Source: Candidatus Nitrosopelagicus sp. (lineage in GTDB: Archaea > Thermoproteota > Nitrososphaeria > Nitrososphaerales > Nitrosopumilaceae). Taken from it: a stretch of DNA of 48,938 nucleotides. The position numbers were made by a program, and so were the translations under genes. The notes under the pieces are model-generated. The model ran no database searches. It had not been told where the DNA came from and saw only the letters and a program-made list of their open reading frames with translations. Location of the stretch: the NCBI GenBank assembly GCA_028345095.1, contig JAOMCQ010000007.1:1-48938 (forward strand). The letters run 5' to 3'. Shown here one piece after another: positions 39,038 through 44,868 of this stretch (within the stretch, counting starts at the first letter, position 1; each line of letters starts with the position of its first letter).

Positions 39038-39637
39038 ATGAATATAATATCATGTGATGATCATGAAAAAAATTGTATTATAGATGCATATGAAAATGGT
39101 AAAATTATTGCATTTCCTACAGATACAGTTTATGGGGTAGGCTGTGATCCGTTCAATAAAGAGAGCATTTCAAGAATTTATAATTTAAAAAAGAGAGAAG
39201 GTGGAAAAAGATTTCCAATTTTAGGATTATCTAAGATTGAATTAGAAAAAATTGTAGAATTTAATTCAGATGCAGAAAAGATTTCAGAAAGATTTTGGCC
39301 AGGACCAGTGACATTAGTACTCCCAGTTAGAAAAGAAATAAGTGAAAAAATTGAAAATAATGGAAAATTAGCTGTGAGAGTTCCAAATAACGAATGTATA
39401 CTATCAATTCTAAAACAATGTAAATTAATTGTTGGAACAAGTGCAAATATTTCAGGTGAAAAATCAATTTTAGATTCAAATGAGATTAAAACAAAATTAT
39501 CAGAAGTTGATCTTTTAGTAGATGGTGGAAAAATAATCAGCTCAGGAGAATCAACAATTATTGATTTTGTCAATAATGAATTGAAAATTATTAGAGAAGG
39601 TTCTATTTCTAAGTATGAAATAGAAAAAGAGTTATGA
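39038..39637 (+). CDS. tsaC: L-threonylcarbamoyladenylate synthase (Sua5/TsaC)
   Basis: 199 aa YrdC-type domain. It makes threonylcarbamoyl-AMP, the first step of t6A37 tRNA modification. IIAFPTDTVYGVGCDP, LKKREGGKRFPIL, FWPGPVTLVLP, LAVRVPNNE and GTSANISGE are the family blocks. The extra C-terminal Sua5 domain is absent, so it is of TsaC/YrdC length. It overlaps the THUMP gene by four bases and faces a Cgi121-containing gene. Confidence 0.9.
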   Translation: MNIISCDDHEKNCIIDAYENGKIIAFPTDTVYGVGCDPFNKESISRIYNLKKREGGKRFPILGLSKIELEKIVEFNSDAEKISERFWPGPVTLVLPVRKEISEKIENNGKLAVRVPNNECILSILKQCKLIVGTSANISGEKSILDSNEIKTKLSEVDLLVDGGKIISSGESTIIDFVNNELKIIREGSISKYEIEKEL

Positions 39638-40155
39638 ATTTAATTATTACATGTCAAAGAAATCTTGAAGAATTAACTATTTCAGAAATCCAGAATATAT
39701 TAGAAAGATTAGGCGATACAGATGCAATTATTGAAAAAACTATATTTTCAGGAATAATTCAAATTAAAACCAAACTGGATAACATGAAGATTATAGAGGG
39801 TTTTAAGGAAATAATTGAGGATGAACCCTGGTTAATCAAATATTGTTCAAGAATAATTCCTATTCAAGAAGAATGTGAATCAAAGTTAGATGAAATAAGA
39901 AATAAAGTAATTGGTTTATCAAACATAATTAAAAAAAATGATACATATAGAATTACGATAGAAAAACGACAATCATCATTACACAATAAAGAAATTATTT
40001 CAAAAATTGCAGATTCATTATCAAATAAGGTCTCATTAGAGAATTCAGATTGGGAAATAATTATTCAAATACTAAGAAATAAAACCGGAATAAGTATAAT
40101 TCCTCCAAATTCAATTTTAAGTGTTCATAAAGAAAAGCGTATTGATCTAGATTAG
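39634..40155 (+). CDS. THUMP-domain RNA-binding protein (Tan1-like)
   Basis: 173 aa. The order of strands and helices (MNLIITCQRNLEELTISEI, SGIIQIKTKL, then RNKVIGLSNIIKKNDTYRI, and ISIIPPNSILSVHK at the end) fits the THUMP fold, which binds tRNA acceptor ends. Tan1/THUMPD1 relatives help acetylate C12 of tRNA. No catalytic domain follows. It is coupled to tsaC by four bases. It overlaps the convergent fusion gene by nine bases. Confidence 0.72.
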   Translation: MNLIITCQRNLEELTISEIQNILERLGDTDAIIEKTIFSGIIQIKTKLDNMKIIEGFKEIIEDEPWLIKYCSRIIPIQEECESKLDEIRNKVIGLSNIIKKNDTYRITIEKRQSSLHNKEIISKIADSLSNKVSLENSDWEIIIQILRNKTGISIIPPNSILSVHKEKRIDLD

Positions 40156-40917
40156 TATAGATGCTTTTTCAACAAGGAGATCAACAAGTGGAGTTTTAGA
40201 GTCTATTGAATTCAGAGTTTGATTTGATATTTTAAAATATTTTTTAAGGAAACGCGAATTATTATTTCTGAATAATATATCTAAATCATCATATATTGTT
40301 TTATGTAATTTTATTAGATTAGATTTGGTTCCTATAACAATTAAAATAAAATTTTCAGTTTTGGATATTCCAACATTTTTTATTGCATCATTAATTTGAG
40401 TAGTATTAGAAAATCTTAGAAGTAAATCAATTTCAATTTTGTCAGATAACATTTGGTTTTTTAGTTTCTTATTTATAGAAATCATAATAATCTTTTTTGA
40501 ATGTTCTTTATCAAGAATGAATTTAGATGATATTGCTTGTAGATATAATTTAGAATGTTTTTTTCTTAATAACAAAAGATATTCTTTATTTGCATTAAAT
40601 TTTTTAATTGCGAATAAGCCAACTTGGTAATTTTTTATTCTAAATGAAACATTTGTTTTTGAGCCTCCATGAATTATTGGAATTATATTTACAACATCGT
40701 CAGACTTTAACTTAGTATGAATTCCATCAAGAGCAGAGGAATCAATTCCATTGACTGCAATCAATAGATTTTTCCCATCAAAATTAGGAGTATTGTTAGG
40801 TTTTCGAGATATAAGATGTGTTATAAGCTCAGAAATAGTAGATGTGTCTTGAGTAATTTTTAATGAATTAGTTTGAAATGATTTTCGTGCGCCACCTGTA
40901 AAGTTTACGGTAATCAT
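40147..40917 (-). CDS. Fusion: Urm1/MoaD-like ubiquitin-like domain + Cgi121 (KEOPS)
   Basis: 256 aa. Residues 1-85 are a beta-grasp domain of the Urm1/MoaD/SAMP type: TVNFTGGARKSF, then AVNGIDSS, then DDVVNIIPIIHGG with Gly84-Gly85 where a free ubiquitin-like protein would end. After a short linker, residues about 90-256 match Cgi121, the KEOPS subunit: YLQAISSKFILDKEHS, DLLLRFSNTTQINDAIK, VGISKTENFILIVIG, and a final LLVEKASIL. KEOPS, with Sua5 encoded opposite, makes t6A. The fusion may hold, or release, a ubiquitin-like tag. Domain calls are firm; the joint function is inference. Confidence 0.8.
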   Translation of the reverse strand: MITVNFTGGARKSFQTNSLKITQDTSTISELITHLISRKPNNTPNFDGKNLLIAVNGIDSSALDGIHTKLKSDDVVNIIPIIHGGSKTNVSFRIKNYQVGLFAIKKFNANKEYLLLLRKKHSKLYLQAISSKFILDKEHSKKIIMISINKKLKNQMLSDKIEIDLLLRFSNTTQINDAIKNVGISKTENFILIVIGTKSNLIKLHKTIYDDLDILFRNNNSRFLKKYFKISNQTLNSIDSKTPLVDLLVEKASILI

Positions 40918-40953: not shown

Positions 40954-41301
40954 TTATTCAGATTTTGATTCATCAACAATTTCTTCAGCTACTGTTTTTT
41001 CATTAGTTGCAATATGTTCTGGTTCGGCTGCTGGTTCGGCTGCTGGTTTAGATTTTTTAGTTGTTGATTCTTTATGTTCTTGTGATTTCTTTTCATTATC
41101 AATTATCATTTGTTTTCTTTCTTCAAATTTAGCTTGTCTTTGAAGCATTTTTGTGATATAACCAGCAATTTTGTTTTTTAAACCTTTTGAACGAACAACA
41201 GAAATTTCATTTAATGATTGTTTGTTGGTTAAAAAATCAGTTCCAAAACGTTCAGAATATTCTTTCAAAACTTCATTTGAAATTCGTTTTATCCTATCCA
41301 A
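40954..41301 (-). CDS. rps17e: Small-subunit ribosomal protein S17e
   Basis: 115 aa, TTG start. The first 62 residues match S17e: RIKRISNEVLKEYSERF, DFLTNKQSLNEI, SKGLKNKIAGYITKM. A long acidic/Ala-Pro tail (KPAAEPAAEPEHIATNEK) follows, with a 12-base tandem repeat. The unusual tail resembles that of S24e here. It is encoded 36 bases upstream of the Urm1-Cgi121 fusion gene, so both could be on one transcript with tatD. Confidence 0.9.
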   Translation of the reverse strand: MDRIKRISNEVLKEYSERFGTDFLTNKQSLNEISVVRSKGLKNKIAGYITKMLQRQAKFEERKQMIIDNEKKSQEHKESTTKKSKPAAEPAAEPEHIATNEKTVAEEIVDESKSE

Positions 41302-41338: not shown

Positions 41339-42094
41339 TCAAATACCTAGAAATCTCTTCGAATTATCTTCAATTTGTAAGAGTAATTTTTCATATGATG
41401 TATGAAGAATTTTTGAAGCACAGAAAATTATACTTGGTACAAACATAGTTTCAGTAGTTTTATAATCAAAACAATGTGAAAATTTTACAGGGCCGTCAGT
41501 TTCAACTAAAAGTTGTGACAGATCTGTTTTTGTTAGTAAGACCTGTTTATCATTTGCATAGACTAAGAGAGGACCATAAGATACAAAATATTGATTATCC
41601 ATGGCAGTTTTTAATTGAGATTTATTTCCATCAAACCAATGTAGTAAAATTCCAGGTATTTTGTAAGAAGGTAAAATTTCAAAAATATCAGGTAATGTCT
41701 TTCTTGAATGAATGGATACAGGTTTGTTAAATTTCTCTGCTAGAGACAGTTGTTTTGAAAAAACATCTTTTTGAATTTTCCATTTGTTTTCAGAATCAAT
41801 GTAAGTTCTATCTAATCCAATCTCACCAATTCCTATAATAATTTCATGATTTTTTTCAATTAGATCATAAACAGGTGAAGAATCTTTTTGAGCCATTTCA
41901 GGATGTATTCCAATGAAGGGTAAGACATTTTTTGATTTTTCATATAAATCGATTGTCTTATTGGAAGTTTCAAGATCCATCGAAACACAGCATACTTTAA
42001 TTTTTAATAAATTCATATAATTTAGAATCATATCAATATCAGATTTGTATTCAGGATCAGAGAGATGAATATGTGCATCATAAATCCAACTCAT
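41339..42094 (-). CDS. TatD-family metal-dependent hydrolase
   Basis: 251 aa TIM barrel. Metal ligands of the family are visible: DAHIHL, GEIGLD, PVSIHSRK, LLHWFDG and VETDGP. TatD proteins are DNases or other hydrolases. It is the first gene of the minus-strand run into rps17e and the Cgi121 fusion. Confidence 0.88.
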   Translation of the reverse strand: MSWIYDAHIHLSDPEYKSDIDMILNYMNLLKIKVCCVSMDLETSNKTIDLYEKSKNVLPFIGIHPEMAQKDSSPVYDLIEKNHEIIIGIGEIGLDRTYIDSENKWKIQKDVFSKQLSLAEKFNKPVSIHSRKTLPDIFEILPSYKIPGILLHWFDGNKSQLKTAMDNQYFVSYGPLLVYANDKQVLLTKTDLSQLLVETDGPVKFSHCFDYKTTETMFVPSIIFCASKILHTSYEKLLLQIEDNSKRFLGI

Positions 42095-42198: not shown

Positions 42199-42420
42199 AT
42201 GAATGCGTCAAATTTTGGACTACCTGCAATGTATAGGATTTTGAAAAAAGCTGGTGCAGAGAGAGTTAGTGATGAATCAGCAAAGGAATTAGGTAGAATT
42301 ATGGAAGATATTGGAGTAGAGATTGCCAAAAATGCAGTAGAAATGAGTAAACATGCAGGTAGAAAAACAGTAAAAGCTGAAGATGTCAAATTAGCATCTA
42401 AAACATCAGGAAAGATTTGA
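42199..42420 (+). CDS. Archaeal histone
   Basis: 73 aa. The histone fold is complete: [38 protein letters not shown], and [14 protein letters not shown]. It packages DNA as dimers or longer stacks. Sequence is of normal length with no tail. A TATA-like TTTATC lies about 27 bases upstream. tRNA-Cys follows 40 bases downstream. Confidence 0.93.
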
Positions 42421-42460: not shown

Positions 42461-42532
42461 GGTGACGTGGCAGAGCGGTTATGCGTGAGCCTGCAAAGCT
42501 TATCTAAAGGGGTTCGACTCCCTTCGTCACCT
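42461..42532 (+). tRNA. tRNA-Cys (GCA)
   Basis: Acceptor stem GGTGACG pairs with CGTCACC, discriminator T at 42532, typical of tRNA-Cys. Anticodon stem TGAGC/GCTTA with loop CTGCAAA gives GCA. T arm AGGGG-TTCGACT-CCCTT is standard. No CCA is encoded and no intron is present. The last six bases are shared, antisense, with the end of the cupredoxin gene. Confidence 0.95.
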
Positions 42533-42946
42533 TTCTACTTTGATATTTCCTGCCATCCAAGGATGTAGGGTACAGTAGTAAGGATGCATTCCAGTCTCTT
42601 CAAATTTGTATGAAAAAGTTCCATAAGGATCCATATGTCCACTATCAAACATTCCATCAGGTTCTCCATAACTTCCACTAGTTACACTGTGAAATGCAGA
42701 ATCTTCATTTTTCCAAACTACAGGTTCATCAAGTTTCGTGACATAATACGATGGAATGTAACATTCAGGGTGGGGTCCACATGCAGGTCTTGCAGCTTTT
42801 ACAGGGATTGTAATCATGGCCTCAACTTCTTCAACTGTTTCAATTTCAACAATTTCTGTTTCAGTTTCTTCAAAATTCATTTGAGAAACTGCCCCAATTA
42901 TGGCAATAATTGCTATGATAGGGATAATGGCGATTTTCTTATTCAT
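42527..42946 (-). CDS. Plastocyanin-like blue copper protein
   Basis: 139 aa. Residues 1-22 are a signal anchor (hydrophobic run after MNKK). The cupredoxin domain has the type 1 copper ligands: His in SAFHSV, then C, H and M in YYCTLHPWM. An acidic linker (ETETEIVEIETVEEVEA) separates anchor and domain. Ammonia-oxidising archaea use many such proteins as electron carriers outside the cell. The stop codon lies inside the tRNA-Cys acceptor stem on the other strand. Confidence 0.9.
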   Translation of the reverse strand: MNKKIAIIPIIAIIAIIGAVSQMNFEETETEIVEIETVEEVEAMITIPVKAARPACGPHPECYIPSYYVTKLDEPVVWKNEDSAFHSVTSGSYGEPDGMFDSGHMDPYGTFSYKFEETGMHPYYCTLHPWMAGNIKVER

Positions 42947-43065: not shown

Positions 43066-44868
43066 ATGACACTAAGGTTATCTCGTAATCACCCTATTCT
43101 TCTTAAGGATGAATTAAAAGAAAAATCAAAAATGCCACCTAAGGTAATTAGTCTTTTCAACTACAGTGAAGAGGGACGCAGTATCATTGCAAAAAATGAA
43201 CCTCTTCAAGGATTCAAGAAATCTGTTCGAGATTCAATAGATGATGCAGTTAGTCATGCAACAAGTTCAGTTGGGAAAGGTCATGATTATCTAATTTGGA
43301 TGTTAACCAATATTTTTGAAGAAACAGAAGAAAATGCAGAGAATGCAATAATTGATGGTGCAAATGATTGTGGAATTGATGCAGTATTACGTTATGAAAA
43401 AGAAATTTTACTTATTCAATCAAAATTTGGAGAATCTCACGATATAGGAATGATTGATAAATTTGTTAAAGACGTTGAACGATTCAAAAATGCAGAACAA
43501 TCCATTATCAAGCGTAATGAATTGTCATATCTTTGGAACGAGATTAATCAAAAAGGTGTTAAAATCAATCTCGCATACATCACAGATCAAGAGGCGGAAT
43601 ACCAAAGCGATGTCGTCAGAGTCATAGACTTTGATGAAACTTGTCGTGAGTTAAATCAACGTAAAATGAGACCTGAAAAAGACCAAAAAGTAACTCTGAA
43701 TTACATAGAGGGTTTTTCGATAGATAATATTTTTCAATGTTACATGGATGCAGCAGAAGTAGCTAAATTAGTAGAGAAAAATGCGTGGATTACAGATAAT
43801 AATCTTAGACATCATTTAGGGCACAGGGTAAAAGTAAACAAAGGAATTAAGCAAACCTTAGAAGAATGTCCTGAGAGATTTGCTGAATATAACAATGGAC
43901 TTACAGTAACATGTGTAGAAAATGAACATAATAAAAATAGGAAACAGATGACATTAGATTCACCAGTAATTGTTAACGGTGCTCAAACTTCACATCAAAT
44001 ACTAGACAGATCTAAAAAAACAAAAAACATGATAGCAAAAGTTCCTGTAAAAATTGTCATAACAAGAGATGTAGAACAGCAAAAGAATATCACGCGATTT
44101 AGTAACACTCAGAATGCAGTCAAAGGAAAAGATCATTTAGCCTTAGAAGATTTTTGGAAATCTATTAGCTTTCAAATGGAAACACGTGTTGGTTACTTTT
44201 TTGAATACCAAACAGGCTCTTGGGATTCAAAATTAGACGCCGGTCAAAAAGCAAAATTCCATGGTAATGAAGTTTTTAATCAATACCTACCGGTAAGCCA
44301 TAAAAAGAAACTAACAGCAAAAGATGCAATTCAAACTTTTGTCTCATATTTCAAACAAAATCCTACTGGAGCATACCAATCAATTTCTAAATTTTTACCT
44401 GGTGGCGCAGAATATGATAAGATCTTCACCGAAGAAATAATGGATGATTATAGGACATTCTTGTATCCTACTCTAATAATGGAATGTGCTAAAAATGAAT
44501 TCGAGTATGGTCCTAAGAATAAAGTTCACCCATTCAAACGATATTCAACAATATTTTTTGTTGCAGTTGCGGGTAAAATTATCCACGAGTATATTTTAGA
44601 AACATCAGAAGAATTTGAAAATGATATAGATAGAATGGAGAACATCATTAAAGACGTCGAGTTATTCAAGAAAATTTTGAGCCTCATAGACACTGTTGTA
44701 ACCCAAGTATTGTCCAGTCCAGATTTAATAAAAGAATTAGAAAAAGTAAACAATTCTCCTCATAATCTATTCGCAAGTGGAATTTGGAATAATGATATGA
44801 AAAAAGTAATCCAACACTATATTGGATTCCAAGAAAAAGAAATTGATGAAATTAAAAGTTTGATTTAG
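43066..44868 (+). CDS. AIPR-family putative abortive-infection / phage-resistance protein
   Basis: 600 aa. The N-terminus has a restriction-nuclease-like core: DGANDCGID at 97-105 and IQSK at 117-120, the D...QxK pattern of Mrr-type nucleases. The AIPR signature follows: FAEYNNGLTVTC (about 272-283) and SPVIVNGAQTSHQI (about 299-312). The rest is helical. Family members act against phage, but the mode of action is poorly known. It has no adjacent methylase. Codon use shows slightly more CGN Arg than neighbours, a weak hint of transfer, and it lies 0.5 kb from tRNA-Cys. Confidence 0.85.
   Translation: MTLRLSRNHPILLKDELKEKSKMPPKVISLFNYSEEGRSIIAKNEPLQGFKKSVRDSIDDAVSHATSSVGKGHDYLIWMLTNIFEETEENAENAIIDGANDCGIDAVLRYEKEILLIQSKFGESHDIGMIDKFVKDVERFKNAEQSIIKRNELSYLWNEINQKGVKINLAYITDQEAEYQSDVVRVIDFDETCRELNQRKMRPEKDQKVTLNYIEGFSIDNIFQCYMDAAEVAKLVEKNAWITDNNLRHHLGHRVKVNKGIKQTLEECPERFAEYNNGLTVTCVENEHNKNRKQMTLDSPVIVNGAQTSHQILDRSKKTKNMIAKVPVKIVITRDVEQQKNITRFSNTQNAVKGKDHLALEDFWKSISFQMETRVGYFFEYQTGSWDSKLDAGQKAKFHGNEVFNQYLPVSHKKKLTAKDAIQTFVSYFKQNPTGAYQSISKFLPGGAEYDKIFTEEIMDDYRTFLYPTLIMECAKNEFEYGPKNKVHPFKRYSTIFFVAVAGKIIHEYILETSEEFENDIDRMENIIKDVELFKKILSLIDTVVTQVLSSPDLIKELEKVNNSPHNLFASGIWNNDMKKVIQHYIGFQEKEIDEIKSLI

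Follow-up and report, generated by a model that had tools for sequence, protein, structure and literature searches.

The window, by which we mean the whole 48,938-nucleotide stretch of DNA analyzed here, carries on its minus strand a single uninterrupted frame of 256 amino acids (positions 40147–40917), the plus strand of the same interval being broken by many stops. A sequence-only reading of this DNA had described the frame, without naming a strand, as an Urm1/MoaD-type beta-grasp domain joined to the KEOPS subunit Cgi121, and both assignments stand. The features of the fusion gene and of its neighbors are listed in window coordinates.

39038–39637, plus strand: Sua5/YrdC (threonylcarbamoyl-AMP synthase, which starts t6A synthesis); PF01300, 3e-51
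39634–40155, plus strand: THUMP-domain protein, convergent with the fusion gene and overlapping its 3' end by 9 nt; PF02926, 4e-6
40147–40149, minus strand: stop codon of the fusion
40150–40644, minus strand: Cgi121 (KEOPS subunit) domain, residues 92–256; NF011465, PF08617, Foldseek
40645–40662, minus strand: linker, residues 86–91 (SKTNVS), hypervariable; alignment, model
40663–40671, minus strand: His83-Gly84-Gly85 (CAT GGA GGC), with the predicted cut after Gly85; invariance in relatives
40663–40917, minus strand: Urm1/MoaD/ThiS-type beta-grasp (ubiquitin-like, Ubl) domain, residues 1–85; PF02597, TIGR01687, NF053661, structure matches
40954–41301, minus strand: ribosomal protein S17e, a neighbor conserved across the class; PF00833, 1.5e-16
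41339–42094, minus strand: TatD-family DNase, conserved neighbor; PF01026, 4e-49, synteny
42199–42420, plus strand: archaeal histone, conserved neighbor; PF00808, 1e-12, synteny

The order histone–TatD–S17e–ubl–cgi121, convergent with THUMP–Sua5, recurs in whole or in part at most of the inspected loci of the class, which points to an old arrangement and a derived fusion; S17e is probably cotranscribed with the fusion gene. Beyond the histone gene, positions 42527–42946 (minus strand) code for a small cupredoxin/plastocyanin-like protein that looks secreted and matches no Pfam family at 0.01, and positions 43066–44868 (plus strand) for a 600-aa protein that by eye resembles AIPR-type abortive-infection proteins.

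The N-terminal half matches the Pfam ThiS profile PF02597 over residues 15–85 (E = 6e-9; 36.8 bits, cut-off 22.5), and the alignment ends on the last profile position (76/76) exactly at Gly85, in agreement with the earlier proposal that the HGG at residues 83–85 lies where a free Ubl would end. The isolated domain also reaches the Urm1 profile PF09138 (22.0, cut-off 21.8) and matches TIGR01687 below its cut-off. With the NCBIfam Urm1 equivalog NF053661, which 56 of 58 Cgi121-linked Ubl relatives match at E ≤ 0.01, the window's domain scores 27.8 bits, below the curated cut-off of 70 bits, and we therefore term it only Urm1-like. The C-terminal half exceeds the cut-offs of both CGI-121 PF08617 (E = 3e-8; 34.2 bits, cut-off 25) and NCBIfam Cgi121 NF011465 (2.7e-30; 105.5 bits, cut-off 40). 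An AlphaFold2 model made with 72 homologues consists of two well-folded domains (mean pLDDT 92.6), with values below 50 only at residues 84–86. In Foldseek searches of the PDB the Cgi121 half retrieves KEOPS Cgi121 chains (E to 5e-8, TM (target) about 0.7) and the Ubl half retrieves Ta0895, Urm1, MoaD and SAMP1 structures; a profile from the 58 Cgi121-linked Ubls matches MoaD only at ~1e-3, against 1e-10 to 1e-11 for Ta0895 and the Urm1 structures. In the primary translation the Gly-Gly pair is internal, at residues 84–85 of 256, and it would become an actual C terminus, as in Urm1, MoaD and ThiS sulfur carriers, only after cleavage.

Fused and split gene pairs

A Ubl–Cgi121 fusion with an S17 neighbor was reported in Thaumarchaea by Makarova and Koonin in 2010, whose passages on it describe it as conserved across all Thaumarchaea available at that date (PMC2948915). 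The window gene agrees with the fusion of those passages in architecture, lineage and S17 neighbor, with the Ubl N-terminal, Cgi121 C-terminal and the S17e gene 36 bp upstream; the fusion as such was therefore already known, and the sequence-only reading erred in knowing of no description. The same passages do not discuss Gly-Gly invariance, split ancestors or covariation with the protease JAMM1. A 2024 survey of archaeal fusions (PMC11237513) does not name the Ubl–Cgi121 fusion in its main text, and a search of the post-2010 literature returned no paper tying Cgi121 or KEOPS to Thaumarchaea and to this fusion. The contribution made here is new comparative evidence, drawn from genome sequences, on whether the chain is cut.

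In the window's own family (f1, with named matches in Nitrosopumilus, Nitrosopelagicus, Nitrosotalea, Nitrosotenuis and Nitrosarchaeum) the fused form is the rule. It is found by tblastn in dozens of named records and also in single-contig genomes, its full-length frame is retained at 181 of 181 family fusion loci, and the closest named relatives of the window fusion are Candidatus Nitrosopelagicus, at about 75–79% identity. The window comes from a fragmented, 66%-complete MAG, which might suggest a sequencing error, a mis-assembly or a chance similarity, but the same fusion in single-contig genomes and dozens of named records shows that it is no assembly error of this MAG, curated cut-offs are passed for both domains, and the fusion was published in 2010; we regard the probability of an artefact as negligible. 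The frame is broken in two f1 genomes: in G026 an in-frame TGA directly follows HGG-Ala, and in G094 the frame changes, in either case possibly as a result of sequencing error.

Other Nitrososphaeria mostly carry two neighboring genes, adjacent or overlapping, with the Ubl first and usually ending exactly at HGG-stop; the remaining free Ubls beside cgi121 carry tails of 1–9 aa. With more genomes at hand than in 2010, the fusion described in those passages of PMC2948915 is thus seen as one form of a gene pair whose members, outside the Nitrosopumilaceae, are mostly separate. Genus g26 of family f3 includes three fused and three split genomes, which implies that fusion arose at least twice. In six split pairs (L062, L064, L084, L087, L091, L097) the Cgi121 start lies out of frame within the HGG codons (cATGGnGGn), so that a small indel or the loss of a stop would fuse the pair; this overlap may also couple the translation of ubl and cgi121. 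An unfused f20 genome has ubl, cgi121 and E1 in a row, and in other classes of Thermoproteota an HGG-ending Ubl is adjacent to Cgi121, or about one gene away from it, at 12 of 30 loci; wherever a gene clearly intervenes, it looks like a phosphoribosyltransferase.

There are several variations on this arrangement. Several other lineages have a phosphoribosyltransferase-like gene separating ubl from cgi121 (L202, L209, L212, L215, L221, L089, L090); the free Ubls of f2 genus g21 (L062–L066) end in HGGCI, HGGCL or HGGGCL, with a tail that begins with Cys or Gly-Cys and is longer in L064; and in f3 genus g22 (L078, L080–L082) Cgi121 is without an adjacent Ubl, other ThiS-family genes being located elsewhere in those genomes. 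No GG-less Ubl was seen with the class-wide HMM, which was built from HGG-bearing fusions and which a very divergent Ubl of that kind could escape.

The Gly-Gly junction

Three grounds for abandoning it had been named beforehand by the sequence-only reading, a first part without a beta-grasp match, a second part without a Cgi121 match, and loss of the Gly-Gly among relatives. None of them applies: both halves match their families, and HGG is invariant in 137 of 137 distinct fusion proteins (181 loci). Its codons vary freely (CAT 160, CAC 21, and all four Gly codons at both Gly positions), and selection therefore acts on the protein. Across the 58 fused and free Cgi121-linked Ubls the only invariant columns are those of HGG. 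Residues 86–92, immediately downstream, are the most variable part of the fusion (entropy 2.17; the Ubl has 1.32 and Cgi121 1.57), and Gly85 is followed by Ser in 84 and by Ala in 34 of the 137 proteins (118 with either). The junction thus has the form of a JAMM-processed precursor, a conserved Gly-Gly followed by a variable extension. An internal translation start producing free Cgi121 was considered and set aside: 111 of the 137 fusions have no in-frame ATG, GTG or TTG in the 12 codons after HGG, the GGAGG-like codons are not conserved, and such a start is not general.

Packing does not explain the conservation of HGG, since the model has low confidence only at GG-S, and an invariant HGG in a disordered linker, at the point where free homologues end, is best explained as a tail that becomes, or is recognized as, the C terminus of the Ubl. 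The Gly pair could serve instead as a flexible hinge, which would speak against cleavage, but a hinge leaves the invariant His unexplained.

Two readings had been offered from the sequence, a processed precursor and a permanent fusion, and the indirect comparative evidence favors the first over the second. In a permanent fusion the Ubl would never be released and would act as an adaptor or docking module on KEOPS, bringing to it, for example, tRNA-thiolation or proteasome components, or would substitute for a small KEOPS subunit. Such a role is in keeping with the full-length frame kept at all 181 loci, with the repeated fixation of the fusion and with the 111 of 137 proteins that lack an in-frame start just after HGG, and a coordinated function of KEOPS and the Ubl was also weighed in the 2010 passages (PMC2948915). 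It fails to predict, however, an invariant HGG in a disordered linker, the natural splits in f1 (G026, G094), the free HGG-ending homologues, or the link between Ubl extension and JAMM1 described below, and we consider it unlikely.

JAMM proteases and activating enzymes

Two cleanly separated clades, JAMM1 (motif type HSHP..PS.TD) and JAMM2 (motif type HSHPSG), hold most of the JAMM proteins; other classes also contain a third type. A JAMM-type protease had been suggested as something to look for, and the window's own genome codes for one JAMM1 and one JAMM2; the JAMM1 (G000:C2:21335, HSHPKSIALPSNTD) has an intact metal motif, E...HSHP...S..D.

Outside f1, 42 genomes were scored for JAMM1 and for whether the Ubl is extended, either by a tail of 1–9 aa past the GG or by fusion, or ends exactly at HGG-stop. 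An extended Ubl occurs in 15 genomes with JAMM1 and one without, and an exact end in 12 with and 14 without (Fisher p = 0.0024, in a test devised after the data had been seen). Coarse corrections for kinship give 10, 0, 8 and 11 (extended with and without JAMM1, exact with and without) and p = 0.0035 when each genus is counted once, and p = 0.019 when each family is. The sole exception, G152, is extended and without JAMM1; it is 91% complete and its four congeners have JAMM1. Family f18 holds both states, with JAMM1 and the tail QEAYGSVK in G019, and HGG-stop without JAMM1 in G004 and G025. The scored f1 genomes, all fused or tailed, all have JAMM1, where the sequences read fall in the JAMM1 clade and the remainder were assigned from strong Prok-JAB matches. 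The pattern is as predicted for a maturation protease and suggests, from gene content, that a Ubl extension is affordable only where the protease is present; JAMM1 may instead serve mainly the other fused Ubl (Ubl-E1), or deconjugation.

That second Ubl forms the N-terminal part of an E1 fusion protein of about 450 aa with an internal conserved AGG-S (L260, L261, L263–L266, Nitrosopumilaceae), and together with the Cgi121-linked Ubl it accounts for the ThiS-family matches in the f1 genomes checked, where no free-standing Ubl was found, barring one short frame in the fragmented G130. Frames of Ubl-E1 size were seen only in JAMM1-bearing genomes, and E1 is of unfused size in JAMM1-lacking ones. 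Of the 137 family genomes, 127, the window's included, carry the TIGR00269 thiolase (NcsA), and 104 carry E1, which all single-contig relatives checked also have. No cognate E1 was found in the window's own genome, a fragmented MAG that is 66% complete, and for this genome we infer E1 activation from its relatives.

The 33 of 137 family genomes without E1, of which those read keep HGG, were considered as a natural experiment in E1 loss, which would have uncoupled HGG conservation from activation, but the idea was rejected because the gap comes from assembly or binning. E1 is flanked by threonine synthase (thrC) and an S-layer gene (L263–L266), and of 28 E1-less drafts tested 22 have no threonine synthase and four others only a truncated one. 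With the adjoining gene absent or truncated in 26 of 28, and no single-contig genome without E1, the apparent loss is a draft gap. The thrC–E1–S-layer stretch drops out of many family drafts in a way that resembles gene loss, and studies of gene presence and absence should allow for this.

A proposed processing route and its precedents

We think it probable, on comparative grounds, that JAMM1 divides the chain after Gly85 into an Urm1-like modifier and Cgi121. The sequences show that the fusion gene comes from an ancestral ubl–cgi121 pair, side by side or sharing the HGG codons, in which a stop or frame boundary was lost. In the proposed route, a JAMM1-type metalloprotease would cut the product post-translationally behind Gly85. 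The Urm1-like part, its HGG tail now free, would undergo activation by E1 and would then act in tRNA thiolation with the NcsA/TIGR00269 thiolase, in protein tagging, or in both, and the released Cgi121 would take its place in KEOPS for t6A37. Parts for two anticodon-loop modifications would thereby come from a single transcript at a fixed ratio.

Cleavage might instead serve mainly Cgi121, with the Ubl as a folding or expression partner in cis or as a temporary inhibitor of KEOPS, and JAMM1 as the activator of Cgi121. The N-terminal placement of the Ubl, as in ubiquitin–ribosomal protein fusions, would fit such a role, as would the reactivation of MPT synthase from SAMP1–MoaE by HvJAMM1, an instance of reversible inhibition (PMC4443979). 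The Ubl is, however, otherwise a bona fide Urm1-like carrier, is elsewhere a separate gene with a free HGG end, stands in a row with E1 in the f20 genome, and is, apart from Ubl-E1, the only Ubl seen in the checked genomes of the window's family, bar the short frame in G130; we judge a cleavage of this kind to be quite improbable.

The favored route may extend to the second fusion. We suggest tentatively that the Nitrosopumilaceae possess no Ubl gene with a free C terminus, and that the two Ubl domains found per genome, N-terminal in HGG/S-Cgi121 and AGG/S-E1, are both matured by one JAMM, which would couple t6A37 (KEOPS) with s2U34 or protein tagging (Urm1 route). In the literature searched there is no report of cleavage, of free Urm1 or of a conjugate in any Thaumarchaeon. 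The question left by the 2010 report is now directly testable, with a proposed protease (JAMM1), a proposed site (between Gly85 and Ser86), and a matched set of genomes that either have or lack JAMM1. If the chain is cut, it would be a natural archaeal parallel to the eukaryotic ubiquitin fusion precursors, in highly abundant ocean archaea, and one gene and one protease would link two universal anticodon-loop tRNA modifications.

The eukaryotic ubiquitin–ribosomal protein fusions have an N-terminal Ubl, a translation-related partner and a Gly-Gly junction, and are cut after the Gly-Gly, but the resemblance is one of layout only, as the Ubl here is of a different family (Urm1/MoaD-like) and the partner is unrelated. 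The best-scoring solved relatives of the Cgi121-linked Ubl profile, along with Ta0895, are the Urm1 proteins of S. solfataricus (4wwm), yeast (2qjl) and T. brucei (2k9x); the archaeal and eukaryotic Urm1 proteins share the length of the domain and the position of the Gly-Gly, but are free proteins in which the Gly-Gly is the true C terminus. MoaX of M. tuberculosis, a MoaD–MoaE fusion, is cut between Gly82 and Ser83 (PMC4326299). It is similarly built, with an N-terminal Ubl, an internal Gly-Gly and an enzyme subunit as partner, and the Ser behind its Gly-Gly matches the most frequent residue at that position in Ubl–Cgi121; the partner, however, is MoaE (molybdopterin synthase) rather than Cgi121, and the cut is demonstrated in MoaX and predicted in Ubl–Cgi121. 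In an engineered linear SAMP1–MoaE fusion of haloarchaeal origin HvJAMM1 cuts after the GG in vivo, and deletion of the GG blocks this (PMC4443979); in Caldiarchaeum, CsJAMM cleaves CsSAMP precursors, and the CsUb and CsSAMP precursors are cut by CsRpn11/CsJAMM (PMC6043591). These are archaeal Ubls extended past the GG and matured by JAMM proteases, those of Caldiarchaeum being the same kind of tailed precursor, but they are an engineered fusion and short tails, whereas Ubl–Cgi121 is a natural fusion to a tRNA-modification subunit.
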